Source of the DNA: Candidatus Aenigmatarchaeota archaeon
GTDB taxonomy: Archaea > Aenigmatarchaeota > Aenigmatarchaeia > Aenigmatarchaeales > Aenigmatarchaeaceae
Length of the DNA stretch: 32,666 nucleotides
NCBI GenBank assembly: GCA_021163145.1
Contig: JAGGXH010000001.1
Coordinates: forward strand, 1-32,666
Direction of reading: 5' to 3'
Shown here: positions 8,984 to 29,643 of the stretch, piece by piece
Layout of the letters: each line of letters opens with the position of its first letter
How positions within the stretch are numbered: position 1 is the stretch's first letter
Notes under the pieces: generated by a model
Seen by the model: the letters and a program-made list of their open reading frames with translations, nothing else
Databases searched by the model: none
Told to the model about the DNA's origin: nothing
Program-made: the position numbers and the translations under genes

Positions 8984-11900
8984 TTACTTAATCTCTATTG
9001 TTTTTCCAATAGAACCATTTCCAGAAAAATATAAATTTCCACCACATTTTGGACAACATCCACGCAATGGTGGCCTTCTATCAGACCAATGACATTTATT
9101 ACAAACAACCGCATCAAATGAGTTTAATACCATATCTTCTGGAGAAATTGGTTTAGTTCCAGAATTTATCATATCAAACAATGTTGTTTGTTTAGAACCT
9201 TCTAATAATTCTGATTGTGAAACACCACATGTTTCAAATATTCTTTCTAGTGGTGGCAATATTTGATTTTTAATATAATATTCAGAATCTATTTCTAAAT
9301 TTTTCTCTTTAATATAATTTGGATCTTCTGCTCTTCGTGAAACAAGCTCATTTCCTTTAATTATAACATAAGGCAAACGCTGACCAACCATACTACCAAC
9401 AGTTGGGTCTCTTTTAATAATTTTTTTAGCTAACTCAACATGTGGCTGAACATTATCATATTGATCGAGTGGTTTGGTTATTCCTTTTACAACAGCAAGA
9501 TCTTCAATTGGAATAAGTCCTTTATTTAAGTCATGTATAATTTTTCTAACATATTTAGCAGCTGCCTTTGTATCACCTTCCTTAAGAATTGTCTCAAGAA
9601 CTTTTTTCATTGTCTTTGTTGTTAATGGACACCAATCTCTTCTTACAACCTCAATTCCTTTAAATGCAATTTTATCTTTCCACCCATCTGCTCTTTTTTC
9701 AAATTGCCAACCTGCATATCTTTTTTTACTTAAAATTAAAAATGTTTTAAATGCTTTTTCAAACTCAAGCTCCATTCCCTCAAGTTTTTGTGTAATAAAT
9801 TTTGCCATTTCTTCTCCTTTCTTTGCAGCTTCTTCTAAATCTGTAATATCAGTCTTAACAAATACTGAGTCAGTATTATGTAATAATATTTGTCCACAAG
9901 AATCTACAAACATATGACTATTATCAACATTTAAGTCATAGACATATCCAGAATATTTTTCTACTTTTAATTTAGCATTTATAGATTTTCTATAATTAGA
10001 ACATGTTGTTATTCTATAAGTTTTTTTATTATAATCATACCTTATAGTATATTTTTGATTTAATTGATTTAATAAAAACGACAAACCGCATATTAAATGT
10101 AAAGATTTTGTGTCATATCTGAAATTTTCTTTTTTATATTTATTAGAATATCTTGCATCTGCCCATCTAGACCCATCTCCTTTTATCATATATTCTAACA
10201 AAAGTTCTTTATATTTCTGTGGAACATGATATATAAAATCTGGTAATTTCTTGTTTTTTGATTTTTGTCCACCAAGTATTTTGAAGAAAACCGCTGCTAA
10301 TTCATTTGTCATTTGTAATTTGTATGTTTTATCTTTATATATTATATTTTTTTCTTTGCCATTATTTGTTTTATATGTTAAATTTCTTGTTTTTTTAGTA
10401 GATCTTATTATAGATGCTTTAGAGTTTTTAAACAATCTCAAGTAATCTTGTTTTATTTGTTTTAGTAATTGTTTATCAGATGAACATATGCTTGCACACA
10501 TTTTATGCTTAGTTGTTTCTATTGTTGAAGCACTTCCCTCAGATATATATAATCCAAGCAATCTACACAATGATTCAAATTCTTTAGATCTGACATAAAT
10601 AAATCTTTTAAGTTTTATTCTTTTTTTCCTCTTTGTCCACCCAAACCAAACATAATTTTTATCTTTATGAATGCATGAAATTCTTTTTTTACCTTTATAA
10701 ACTGTTGTCTTTGAATAATGTTTCAATATTTCATACAAATCTATTTTATTAATTTGTTTAACATTTGGTATTTTATCTACTCTTATCATTGATTTGTTTA
10801 ACATTTCTTTAGGTTTTGATTCAACAAAATTTCCATTTTGTAATGTTATTAAAGAATGATCTTCTGTAACTATTGTTTCTCCAAACTTCTGGTTTACTCT
10901 ATATATTTTTTTGCTTGTTTTATGTCTTATTATTTCATTTATTTTTCTCCATACTGGTTTTTTTGTTTTAGGATCAACTGAAAGAACCTTTATGGTTCTT
11001 TCTGGTATCACTATTTCTTTTTCTCCTCTTCTAAATAAATTGTTCTTATGTTCTTGGAATAGTTCTTCTATGTTTTTTATTTTAACAATATTATTATCAA
11101 TAATTGTAACAAATCTATCTTTAGTAACACTATCACCGTAGATTACTTTATAACCAAAATTTTCTTCAACTAGTTTTTTTGTTACATCAATATTATATCT
11201 TCCCCAACCTGTTATTGATGCAGCAACTTCAGGTGTAAAAAATCTTGCACCAACAAAACCAATATAGCCCCATAATGAAACCAACATTCCTTTTAATGCA
11301 TATTGTTTTGCATCCAATAATTTAAGTATTTCTTCATTTGTTTCTTTTTTCATTAAATCTTTTACCTTAAATCTTGTATCAAAATAATATCTTGCAACAT
11401 ATGGAAATATTCCTTCTCTAATATTCTTTTTAACAAATTTTGCATTAACAGGAGAAACATAATAATCATCAGGGGATATGTTTTTCTCCTCTCTTAGCAA
11501 AGTACTTGGACATATATTATAATGCATTATCATAGAAGGATACATTGATTTAAAATCTAATACAAGAATATATCCATCTTTATGTAATCCAACATCTGGT
11601 TCCAAAACAGTTGCACCCTTAAATTTGTTCGATGCTCTAGCTTTTATTGTATTTCTATCTGGTTTACATGGCATTAGTATATTTCTTTTTTTAACTTCGT
11701 GAAGCAAAGCATTTTCATGTCTTGCAGATTGTCCTGCCATAAGATCCTGAAGAGTTAATCCAGATAACTTTGACATTTCTATAAATTTATCCATATCAAC
11801 AAGTTTATGACTTATTATTAGTTCCAATACTAAATCAGAATCTGTTTGACAATATTCTGCAATTTTAGTTATTTTGTTTATATCATTACTTTTCCAATAT

Positions 11901-12913
11901 TCAAGCATTTGATTGTGATTTAAATCTTTTTTACCTTTTCCCAACAATTGATTTGCAACTGTATCTAAATTAAATCTTCTGAATTTATGAGGTTGGTCAT
12001 AAACAGAAAGATATCTTATTATATAATAAGGATCTAATAAAAATCTTCCTGTGATTGCAGTTCTTTGTGTATAACTTAAATTCTTTGTCCATGCCTTTTT
12101 TTCTGCTCTACCAATATCTGTTGGAATATTATATAATTGCATTCTCTTTAAAATATATGGAACATCGAAATTCTCAATATTATAACCAGCTAAAACATCT
12201 GGATCAAAATCTATAATAATTTCTTTGAATTTTTCAAGCATTTGTTTTTCATCTGAACACACAATAGCATTACATGTCTTATTAATTTTCTTTGTGATAA
12301 GAACAAGTTGTTTCATATTCTTATATTCAGGATAAAAAGCCATTGATATCATGATTATAGGATCAAAATTAGCATCAGGCATTCTATATTCATCTGTTAT
12401 ACATTCTATATCAAATGATAAATATCGTAGAGGTGCATTTTTAACATTTTCAATTGATGTTATTTTCTTTGCTTGGATTGCCTTACATTTTACAGTTGTT
12501 GTTCTTATAAAATTTCCTTCCACATCTATCCATTTCATAGCTCTTAGACCAGCATCAACCATATATCTATATTTATAAAGAATATCAGCTTCATATGGTG
12601 TTCCTAAGTGTTTAACAGCATTTTTTATCTCAGGTATCTTAGCTGGATTAGTACCAATTATTTTAATTACTTTTTTTGGTTTTTCTGAATATCCAATTGG
12701 TAAATATTTTTCAACTATTTCTGTTTTTAATCCCATTTTTTCTAATTCATATAATGTATCATGAATATCATTTTTTGGATCCAAATAAAAATATGGTTTT
12801 GGTCCTTTTGTAAAAACACATATTGTATTACCTATAATATCTTTACAAAACAACCTAACTACTGGTCTATTGTCCAAAAGAACATAATCAACATCAAAAA
12901 TTTGTAGTTGCAT
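8984..12913 (-). CDS. polB: family B DNA polymerase precursor containing an intein; C-terminal Zn ribbon
   Basis: Exo motifs FDIE, YNIENFD, YCQTDSD; polymerase motif A DFKSMYPSMI; motif C YGD|intein|TDS; C-terminal CNKC...CCPKC. Confidence 0.96.
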   Translation of the reverse strand: MQLQIFDVDYVLLDNRPVVRLFCKDIIGNTICVFTKGPKPYFYLDPKNDIHDTLYELEKMGLKTEIVEKYLPIGYSEKPKKVIKIIGTNPAKIPEIKNAVKHLGTPYEADILYKYRYMVDAGLRAMKWIDVEGNFIRTTTVKCKAIQAKKITSIENVKNAPLRYLSFDIECITDEYRMPDANFDPIIMISMAFYPEYKNMKQLVLITKKINKTCNAIVCSDEKQMLEKFKEIIIDFDPDVLAGYNIENFDVPYILKRMQLYNIPTDIGRAEKKAWTKNLSYTQRTAITGRFLLDPYYIIRYLSVYDQPHKFRRFNLDTVANQLLGKGKKDLNHNQMLEYWKSNDINKITKIAEYCQTDSDLVLELIISHKLVDMDKFIEMSKLSGLTLQDLMAGQSARHENALLHEVKKRNILMPCKPDRNTIKARASNKFKGATVLEPDVGLHKDGYILVLDFKSMYPSMIMHYNICPSTLLREEKNISPDDYYVSPVNAKFVKKNIREGIFPYVARYYFDTRFKVKDLMKKETNEEILKLLDAKQYALKGMLVSLWGYIGFVGARFFTPEVAASITGWGRYNIDVTKKLVEENFGYKVIYGDSVTKDRFVTIIDNNIVKIKNIEELFQEHKNNLFRRGEKEIVIPERTIKVLSVDPKTKKPVWRKINEIIRHKTSKKIYRVNQKFGETIVTEDHSLITLQNGNFVESKPKEMLNKSMIRVDKIPNVKQINKIDLYEILKHYSKTTVYKGKKRISCIHKDKNYVWFGWTKRKKRIKLKRFIYVRSKEFESLCRLLGLYISEGSASTIETTKHKMCASICSSDKQLLKQIKQDYLRLFKNSKASIIRSTKKTRNLTYKTNNGKEKNIIYKDKTYKLQMTNELAAVFFKILGGQKSKNKKLPDFIYHVPQKYKELLLEYMIKGDGSRWADARYSNKYKKENFRYDTKSLHLICGLSFLLNQLNQKYTIRYDYNKKTYRITTCSNYRKSINAKLKVEKYSGYVYDLNVDNSHMFVDSCGQILLHNTDSVFVKTDITDLEEAAKKGEEMAKFITQKLEGMELEFEKAFKTFLILSKKRYAGWQFEKRADGWKDKIAFKGIEVVRRDWCPLTTKTMKKVLETILKEGDTKAAAKYVRKIIHDLNKGLIPIEDLAVVKGITKPLDQYDNVQPHVELAKKIIKRDPTVGSMVGQRLPYVIIKGNELVSRRAEDPNYIKEKNLEIDSEYYIKNQILPPLERIFETCGVSQSELLEGSKQTTLFDMINSGTKPISPEDMVLNSFDAVVCNKCHWSDRRPPLRGCCPKCGGNLYFSGNGSIGKTIEIK
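9875..11131 (-). mobile_element. intein in PolB (pol-c site), 419 aa, with LAGLIDADG endonuclease domain
   Basis: N-extein VIYGD / SVTKDRFVTI (Ser1) ... block B VTEDHSLITL ... LLGLYISEGSA and LLEYMIKGDGSR (two LAGLIDADG motifs) ... YVYDLNVDNSHMFVDSCGQILLHN / TDSVFVKT. Frame-checked: 1257 nt. Confidence 0.95.
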
Positions 12914-12961: not shown

Positions 12962-13855
12962 CTATATATCCATTATTTCTCTGTTTCTTAAATTAATCTG
13001 TTTATTTAACGAAACAATACTAATTCCTTTATAATTTTTATTTATTGATTCATTGAAAACAATATCTGGAACAACATCTAATAGAAAATCAGTATTATTT
13101 ATAGAAATATATCTCTTTCTTAACAATTCAAGAGCATTATATCCAATAACAATAAGAATATTTATACCATTAATTTCAAATAAACTAACTGGCTTATTTA
13201 CAAAGTATGCATTATTAACATTCTTGTCCTCTAGAATAAATGTAAAGTCAGATTTTACATCTGGATTAAATTTTTCTGAAAAAGAAACAATAATATCATT
13301 ACTACTTAAAATTGGAACTCTTAAAGGAACATCAGGAAACATAATTTCATTTACATGAAAAATATTGTCAGAATAATAACCATTTAGAGCAATTACATCA
13401 TCAAACTTTATCTTATCCAAATAGTCTTTTGATAAACTACAATTTATCATACCTGTTTGATCTTCTACTTCAATAAATAATTCTGTATTACTAGAATCAA
13501 TTGTTTTTATCATACCTATTATAGAACATTTTGTACCATTAGATAATTTGTTTATTGAAATTAAATTGGTTATCTGGGTTTTATTAACCAATATTTGTTT
13601 TAAAAAAGCAAATCTATCATTTATTTGTTTTATAAAGTCATCTATTGTATATTTTTTTATTATTTCAAATTCTTTTATTTTCTTAAAATTAACTTGTCTT
13701 ATATATGAATCAATAATTTCTTGTGTTAATACTAATGGTCTATATTCTTTTGCTTTAGTTATAACTAATTTAATGTCATTTTTGCTCATTTTTTCCAATT
13801 TAGAGAGAGCTTCTGGCTCTATTAAAATACCAGAACCTTTTAATTCCTCTAACAT
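12962..13855 (-). CDS. truncated, apparently inactive DNA polymerase D small subunit (DP1)-like protein
   Basis: N-terminal helical region, OB fold (GTKCSIIGMIKTIDSSNTELFIEVEDQTGMINCSLSKD), IMFPDVPLR linker, C-terminal VVPDIVF...YKGISIVS resembling the DP1 VPDI.HTGHVH..YRGV..IN segment without the metal ligands. Confidence 0.8.
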   Translation of the reverse strand: MLEELKGSGILIEPEALSKLEKMSKNDIKLVITKAKEYRPLVLTQEIIDSYIRQVNFKKIKEFEIIKKYTIDDFIKQINDRFAFLKQILVNKTQITNLISINKLSNGTKCSIIGMIKTIDSSNTELFIEVEDQTGMINCSLSKDYLDKIKFDDVIALNGYYSDNIFHVNEIMFPDVPLRVPILSSNDIIVSFSEKFNPDVKSDFTFILEDKNVNNAYFVNKPVSLFEINGINILIVIGYNALELLRKRYISINNTDFLLDVVPDIVFNESINKNYKGISIVSLNKQINLRNREIMDI

Positions 13856-15054
13856 AAAAATATCTGCCCCAACATCTTTTTTAACTTTTCTTCAGTTTCA
13901 TTATTTATATTCAATGAAATAAGCTTGGTTCTCCCATATCTGCCTCTCGATACAACCTTACTGTTTAAAATACCGAATAAAACAAGCTCATTTATTAAAT
14001 CAGATATTCTTCTTGACGTTAATTGTTTTAAACCATTTTTAACACAAATTTCTTTATATTTATCTAGAATATCTGAAGTTTCTATATATCTCTTTTCTAA
14101 ATTCAAAATAGACCATAAAACAGCTTGGCTTTGTTTAGGCTGTGATTTAACAACTTCAATTATTCTATCAACATCTATTTTATCTTCTGCAGCATCAATA
14201 TCTTCTATAGATACTTTTGATTTAAGCTTTCTTTCAGCTATTTCACCTGCAACTCTTAATAGATCTAAAGCTCTTCTTGCATCACCATGCTCTTGTGCAG
14301 CTAATGCAGCACATTTTTCAATTACCCCATCTTCTAAAACATTTGGCATAAATGCTATCTCTGCTCTTTGTCTCAATATATCCTGTAATTGTATTGCATT
14401 ATATGGAGGAAATACAATTTCTTCTTCAGATAATGAACTTCTAACTCTTGGATCTAATTTTTCTATAAAATCAAGATTATTAGTAATTCCAATAATTGTT
14501 AACCTAGAATTTTTAAGATCTTCATTAATTCTAGTTAGATTATATAGTATCTCATCACCTGTTTTTTGAACTAATGTATCTATTTCATCTATTATAAGAA
14601 TAACTGTTTGGCTTTCAGAATCAAGTGCTTTAAAGAAAATATTATATATTTGATCTGTTGGCAAACCAGTAAAAGGTACATCATAACCAAATTCTCTAGA
14701 TAAACCAGCCAATAATCTATACTCAGTATCTGCTGATTTCTTCATCTTACAATTAATATATAATGTTTTTACATTAAACCCATTTATATGAGCTGCTTTC
14801 TCTAATTCAGATGTTACCATTTTAGCTAAACATGTTTTTCCTGTACCTGTTCTACCATAAATAAAAATATTACTTGGTCTTCCACCTTTTAATGCAGGTG
14901 CTAATATTCTACCAAGCTCATTTGTTTGTTCATCTCTATGTGGAATCTCCCTAGGAGTAAATGATATTGTTAATACTTGTCTGTTTGCAAATATTGGTTT
15001 ATTTTCTAAAAACTTATTAAATATATTTTGAATATCTGCCATTGGAATCACCAT
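13849..15054 (-). CDS. cdc6: Cdc6/Orc1 replication initiator (start may be the internal ATG of MADIQ)
   Basis: Walker A IYGRTGTGKT, Walker B VILIIDEIDTL, sensor IIGITNNLDF, C-terminal wHTH. Confidence 0.95.
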   Translation of the reverse strand: MVIPMADIQNIFNKFLENKPIFANRQVLTISFTPREIPHRDEQTNELGRILAPALKGGRPSNIFIYGRTGTGKTCLAKMVTSELEKAAHINGFNVKTLYINCKMKKSADTEYRLLAGLSREFGYDVPFTGLPTDQIYNIFFKALDSESQTVILIIDEIDTLVQKTGDEILYNLTRINEDLKNSRLTIIGITNNLDFIEKLDPRVRSSLSEEEIVFPPYNAIQLQDILRQRAEIAFMPNVLEDGVIEKCAALAAQEHGDARRALDLLRVAGEIAERKLKSKVSIEDIDAAEDKIDVDRIIEVVKSQPKQSQAVLWSILNLEKRYIETSDILDKYKEICVKNGLKQLTSRRISDLINELVLFGILNSKVVSRGRYGRTKLISLNINNETEEKLKKMLGQIFLC

Positions 15055-28985: not shown

Positions 28986-29312
28986 ATGAAAAAGAAAATA
29001 AAGCGAAATAGAACAATAAGAAGAGGAATAGATTATGTAAAACTTAGAAAAATCTGGAAAATATTGGAAATTGCAAGAGATAAAAATACATGGTTATATG
29101 TTGCGCAAATATCAAAGGTAACAAACATACATGAATCAACTATAAGATATTATTTGAACAAGTATCTAAATAGAGCAATTGAGAAAAACCCATCTATACC
29201 ACCTGGCATAAAACTAAGGCAAATACGATTAAAACCAGGAATTTTGCTAGAGAATTATATAAATGCATTGGAACATATTGAAAACAGAAAAAAATCTCTT
29301 AAAAAAACATAA
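28986..29312 (+). CDS. small winged-helix regulator (108 aa)
   Basis: WLYVAQISKVTNIHESTIRYYLNKYLNRAI HTH. Confidence 0.6.
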   Translation: MKKKIKRNRTIRRGIDYVKLRKIWKILEIARDKNTWLYVAQISKVTNIHESTIRYYLNKYLNRAIEKNPSIPPGIKLRQIRLKPGILLENYINALEHIENRKKSLKKT

Positions 29313-29643
29313 TTTTATCAGCAATTATTTCCAATTCATTTTTATATTTAGAAACTTTTCCAGTTACTGATACAACATCACCTTGTTTTAATTGCTCTGC
29401 TTCAGGTATTTTAGATTTCTTAAAAACTACTACTTTAATATCACCAGAAAAATCATATAATCTAAAAAACGTATTCCCATTTTTTCTAAATATTTGGCCA
29501 ACATTTCCCCTGATTGTTACTTTTTCTCCAAAATGCTTATTTGCTTGAGAAATATCTATTTTGTTTTCAAGATAATTTGTTATAAAATAAATTGATATAA
29601 CTCCAATAATAGCAACAATAATTGAAATTTTTAATATATTCAT
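29299..29643 (-). CDS. membrane-anchored OB-fold (tRNA_anti-like) protein
   Basis: N-terminal TM (ISIIVAIIGVISIYFI) then GEKVTIRGNVGQIFRKNGNTFFRLYDFSGDIKVVVFKKS...GDVVSVTGKVSKY. Confidence 0.72.
   Translation of the reverse strand: MNILKISIIVAIIGVISIYFITNYLENKIDISQANKHFGEKVTIRGNVGQIFRKNGNTFFRLYDFSGDIKVVVFKKSKIPEAEQLKQGDVVSVTGKVSKYKNELEIIADKIMFF

Follow-up and report, generated by a model that had tools for sequence, protein, structure and literature searches.

A DP1-derived protein without metal-binding motifs as the probable B subunit of a zinc-tailed B-family DNA polymerase in Aenigmatarchaeota

A gene on the minus strand of the 32,666-nucleotide stretch of DNA analyzed here (the window) very probably encodes a descendant of DP1 of PolD that serves as the structural B subunit in a two-subunit B-family replicase. 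The gene is one unbroken open reading frame (12962-13855, minus) for a protein of 297 amino acids, which homology, motif alignment, AlphaFold and Foldseek together characterize as DP1-derived and catalytically dead. A preliminary description, which gave no strand, had called it a structural B subunit rather than a nuclease, and this reading is supported by the predicted fold, by genome searches that found neither DP2 nor a second DP1, and by purifying selection in relatives. Searches of the window for Rfam families and tRNAs found none.

Judged by sequence, the 297-aa protein is a DP1 homologue, with a similarity far above chance. The NCBIfam DP1 model NF003118 matches residues 2-180 (E=1.9e-18), phmmer aligns Pyrococcus abyssi DP1 with residues 9-178 (E=2e-12), and a family profile built from 29 relatives aligns with solved DP1 chains including their phosphodiesterase domain (E=2.4e-36). 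The same profile matches POLE2 weakly over the OB fold (1.7e-4). Three domains can be delimited: an N-terminal helical domain (residues 1-55; 13691-13855, minus), a linker helix with an OB fold (residues 71-178; 13322-13645, minus; homology and AlphaFold), and a phosphodiesterase domain that has shrunk and lacks metal-binding motifs (residues 181-297; 12965-13315, minus; alignment, profile and AlphaFold). The first of these is defined by AlphaFold helices at residues 2-7, 14-22, 25-38 and 45-52 together with a weak profile match (E=0.13) to 2kxe, the solved N-terminal domain of DP1. These results confirm the helical N-terminus and OB fold that had been proposed for a DP1 homologue of this length.

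The AlphaFold model, built from an alignment of 64 sequences, has a mean pLDDT of 95.4 and a pTM of 0.86, with every residue at 70 or above. In Foldseek, P. abyssi DP1 is its best PDB match (2.3e-17); human POLE2 (1.8e-11), POLD2 (2.8e-9) and POLA2 (about 1e-7) come next. The comparison with DP1 and the eukaryotic B subunits that the preliminary description had suggested thus gives a DP1-like fold, which excludes the alternative of an unrelated protein with an OB fold. Since query-normalized TM-scores are 0.5-0.65 and rmsd is at least 5 Å, the resemblance holds domain by domain and is not tight overall. A separate 114-aa protein in the window (29299-29643, minus) carries an OB fold (PF01336, 1.5e-16) behind a hydrophobic N-terminal stretch, and also scores weakly with DP1 models.

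Alignment with DP1s of the class that are catalytically complete shows that the B subunit lacks all five metal-binding motifs (DxH, GDxxDG, GNHD, H and GHxH). EKFN stands in place of SDLH (motif I) and VIG in place of YHG. Deletions have removed most or all of the GDxVDG and GNHD blocks, and what was the GHLH loop has shrunk to NES, flanked by VPDIVF and NYKG. The remnant of the phosphodiesterase domain comprises about 117 residues. By this class alignment the ligand losses first noted from the window alone (SEK in motif I, no GDNVDG or GNHD block, NES in place of TGHVH) were essentially right. That the protein is instead a nuclease with a rebuilt, unrecognized metal site is extremely unlikely: the window protein and the rest of its family (f1) have lost all five motifs together with the loops that bore them, although SDLH and GHxH persist in families f8, f17, f21, f26 and f27, where activity may linger.

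The neighborhood points to a partner which the preliminary description had overlooked, as it had the class-wide occurrence of the arrangement and its publication in 2020. As the preliminary description had stated, the operon is tight: the Orc1/Cdc6 replication initiator (13849-15054, minus) overlaps the start of the B subunit gene by 7 bp, and 48 bp beyond its stop begins a B-family DNA polymerase (PolB; 8984-12913, minus), recognized by motifs, profiles and structure, which is the proposed catalytic partner. This PolB has 1309 aa including a LAGLIDADG intein of 419 aa (9875-11131, minus), inserted in polymerase motif C between YGD and TDS. Most relatives have PolB frames of about 890-930 aa without an intein, and a few frames reach 1246-1400 aa. 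Exonuclease motifs ExoI, ExoII and ExoIII and polymerase motifs A and C are intact in the window PolB, and the exonuclease and polymerase motifs are likewise intact in nearly all relatives. Among solved structures the PolB profile scores best with Pol delta (5.6e-58) and less well with archaeal PolB (2.8e-51); for the predicted C-terminal third human Pol delta also ranks first, with archaeal PolB close behind.

At its C-terminus the window PolB carries a zinc motif (CNKC...RRPPLRGCCPKC; 9044-9103, minus) with cysteines C1271, C1274, C1287 and C1290. These four cysteines are invariant among 17 aligned PolBs of the class, and the motif was recognized in 109 of 114 PolB proteins, several of the remainder being cut at contig ends. 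When nine DP2 proteins were searched with an HMM of the PolB tail, every one gave a match at 34-40 bits, located at the last zinc finger (about residues 1026-1064 of 1108), and the core common to tail and finger reads RRPPLSGKC; by this match the two are homologous. In DP2 and in eukaryotic polymerases, such a zinc tail is the binding site for the B subunit. From homology, the operon and co-occurrence we infer that the B subunit in the window would bind the PolB tail in a comparable way. It would grip the tail through its OB fold and what remains of its phosphodiesterase domain, much as DP1 holds DP2 and POLA2, POLD2 and POLE2 hold their catalytic subunits. PolB would carry out both synthesis and proofreading, the latter with its own exonuclease. 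We propose that, once DP2 had been replaced, the DP1 nuclease became dispensable because PolB synthesizes and proofreads, and that it then decayed.

The association between the two genes was surveyed in 160 genomes of the class, 149 outside family f12 and 11 inside it. Of the 160, 144 have a DP1-like gene, and in 129 genomes both this gene and a zinc-tailed PolB were found; in 116 of these the two share a contig and in 114 they lie within 8 kb. PolB is on the opposite strand in 31 of the 116 single-contig genomes, so co-transcription is not universal. Among 71 named public loci, a set which overlaps the 160 genomes and is not independent of them, PolB is co-directional in 56, always with DP1 before PolB, while Orc1 lies at most 100 bp from DP1 in 47 of the 57 loci that have it and is co-directional in all 57. 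A search of public genome contigs with the B subunit alone gave no match, and the organisms were named with the PolB profile instead; of the 80 PolB loci nearest to that of the window, nearly all carry the name Candidatus Aenigmatarchaeota. One single-contig genome of the class (G131, contig C1) has two DP1-like genes (458649-459605 and 706015-706929), only one of them near a zinc-tailed PolB.

Orc1 is thus the steadier neighbor, lying next to the DP1-like gene and in its direction even in loci with an inverted PolB, and this would fit a structural protein that serves Orc1/Cdc6, the helicase or the primase and whose adjacency to PolB is inherited from an old PolD operon. We consider such a role improbable, however, given the co-occurrence of a zinc-tailed PolB with the DP1-like gene in 129 genomes and the homology of the PolB tail to the DP2 finger.

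Full-length DP2 and the zinc-tailed PolB are mutually exclusive across the class: the former is present in 10 of the 11 genomes of family f12 and in none of the 149 outside it, the latter in 132 of those 149 and in none of family f12. This exclusion may reflect few evolutionary events, because the DP2-bearing state is confined to one family. The source genome of the window (725,527 bases in 68 contigs, 93.5% complete) was searched for a full-length DP1 and for DP2, a check proposed with the first reading; no second DP1 was found in it, and no DP2 with PF03833 or TIGR00354. That DP2 was merely missed by an incomplete assembly is rejected by its absence from all 149 genomes outside family f12. 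Weak DP2 matches in frames of about 900 aa were considered as DP2 remnants and rejected, since they are sited at the C-termini of PolB frames.

The same genome has two other PolB matches, both without the zinc C-terminus. One is a 375-aa PolB (contig C65, 1441-2568, minus; L247) which starts at the polymerase domain, has no exonuclease half in the same frame and is possibly a split or truncated second PolB. The other is a distant B-family polymerase of 877 aa (contig C27, 127-2760, plus; L249), possibly from a mobile element.

The missing DP2 and the shrunken phosphodiesterase domain are also what one would expect of a pseudogene that has been decaying since PolD was lost and has no present role. 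We give this explanation almost no credence. The frame is open, homologues are found across the class in the proportion given above, the model confidence is 95, the operon is tight, and the phosphodiesterase remnant has near-invariant residues (R248, P263, D264, N274, Y275 and K276). In addition, dN/dS of the DP1-like gene is 0.04-0.17 in five pairs of relatives outside family f12, calculated with YN00 and restricted to pairs with dS below 1.8, as dS is saturated in most pairs; the pairs are relatives outside the genus of the window. The dN/dS analysis that had been suggested therefore indicates strong purifying selection in relatives, and the claim that the gene does not look like a decaying pseudogene holds. 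Values for PolB are about 0.02-0.09, with dS partly saturated. The DP1-like gene evolves faster than PolB, yet under clear constraint.

Other members of the class retain more of the active site than the B subunit in the window. DP1s of family f12 are full-length and were scored as keeping all five motifs in 8 of 8 cases; the one from G036 has an insert after GDLC. Among 114 PolB-linked DP1-like proteins none has GNHD or a complete GDxxDG, 19 keep motif I, motifs I and V persist together in 12, and 79 keep no motif, though some of the 114 are contig-end fragments in which a missing motif is not evidence of loss. PolB-adjacent DP1s that keep SDxH and GHxH and have lost GNHD occur in families f8, f17, f21, f26 and f27 (for example at loci L069, L088, L091, L109, L127 and L128), and by their motif content these proteins are intermediate states of active-site loss. 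Nine of the 12 proteins that keep motifs I and V could be placed on a PolB tree of 103 proteins, where they require at least seven changes, so the active site probably decayed repeatedly. The tree, quickly built and unrooted, does not by itself tell loss of motifs from gain; for a catalytic site, loss is what one would naturally expect.

Parts of this system have been known since 2020. Kazlauskas et al. 2020 (PMC7544198) described B6 PolBs of aenigmarchaea whose C-termini carry a DP2-like zinc motif, together with a group of inactive DP1s in the same archaea, most of which have lost DP2. They proposed that the PolB exonuclease permitted DP1 inactivation, and raised the possibility that eukaryotic B subunits arose from ancestors of this kind. 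No operon, adjacency, neighborhood or truncation is mentioned in the main text of their study, and we found no later study of the B subunit-PolB pair in the open-access literature. Inactive DP1, zinc-tailed B6 PolB and DP2 loss in Aenigmarchaeota were already published; the operon linkage, the class-wide counts and the stepwise erosion are added here.

Among published systems, the window resembles the "Aenigma_GB_GCA_002789635-like" inactive DP1 and its B6-aenigma1 PolB (PMC7544198) in belonging to the same phylum, in the inactive DP1, in having no DP2 and in the single DP2-like zinc motif of the PolB C-terminal domain. B6-aenigma1 belongs to the delta-like PolB clade (PMC7544198), as the window PolB may, its profile scoring best with Pol delta. 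The window differs from the published aenigmarchaeal system in the phosphodiesterase domain, of which about 117 residues remain, and in the intein of its PolB; the present analysis also counts linkage and stepwise motif loss. DP1 of P. abyssi PolD (5ihe, 6hmf, 8ppt) shares domain order and homology with the B subunit, is its closest solved fold and is also encoded next to Orc1, whereas the B subunit has no metal-binding motifs, is 297 aa long against about 450-660 aa for archaeal DP1, and comes from a genome where no DP2 was found. Heimdallarchaeal B10 PolB with its DP1 (Kazlauskas et al. 2020) is likewise an archaeal PolB with a metal-binding C-terminus and a DP1 relative, but B10 is a different PolB group; its C-terminal domain clusters apart, and one member may have a DP1 that is still active (PMC7544198).

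The Aenigmatarchaeota would be cellular archaea with a eukaryote-like replacement, and within a single class their DP1 active sites have reached different stages of decay; in this pair a proposed route to the eukaryotic combination of PolB and dead DP1 is directly testable. POLA2, POLD2 and POLE2 are dead DP1 descendants, and the B-family polymerases they serve have C-terminal domains that carry zinc or an iron-sulphur cluster. It is conceivable, if rather unlikely, that the ancestor of Pol alpha, delta and epsilon has a surviving relative in this pairing of PolB and dead DP1, the graded members of which record the passage from proofreader to scaffold; the likeness to the eukaryotic holoenzymes would then be kinship and not an independent parallel. 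The B subunit resembles POLA2, POLD2 and POLE2 in its dead phosphodiesterase domain and in being encoded with a B-family polymerase. At 297 aa, however, it is cut down further than these proteins (about 430-530 resolved residues), and the PolB tail has one zinc motif where the eukaryotic polymerases have CysA and CysB.
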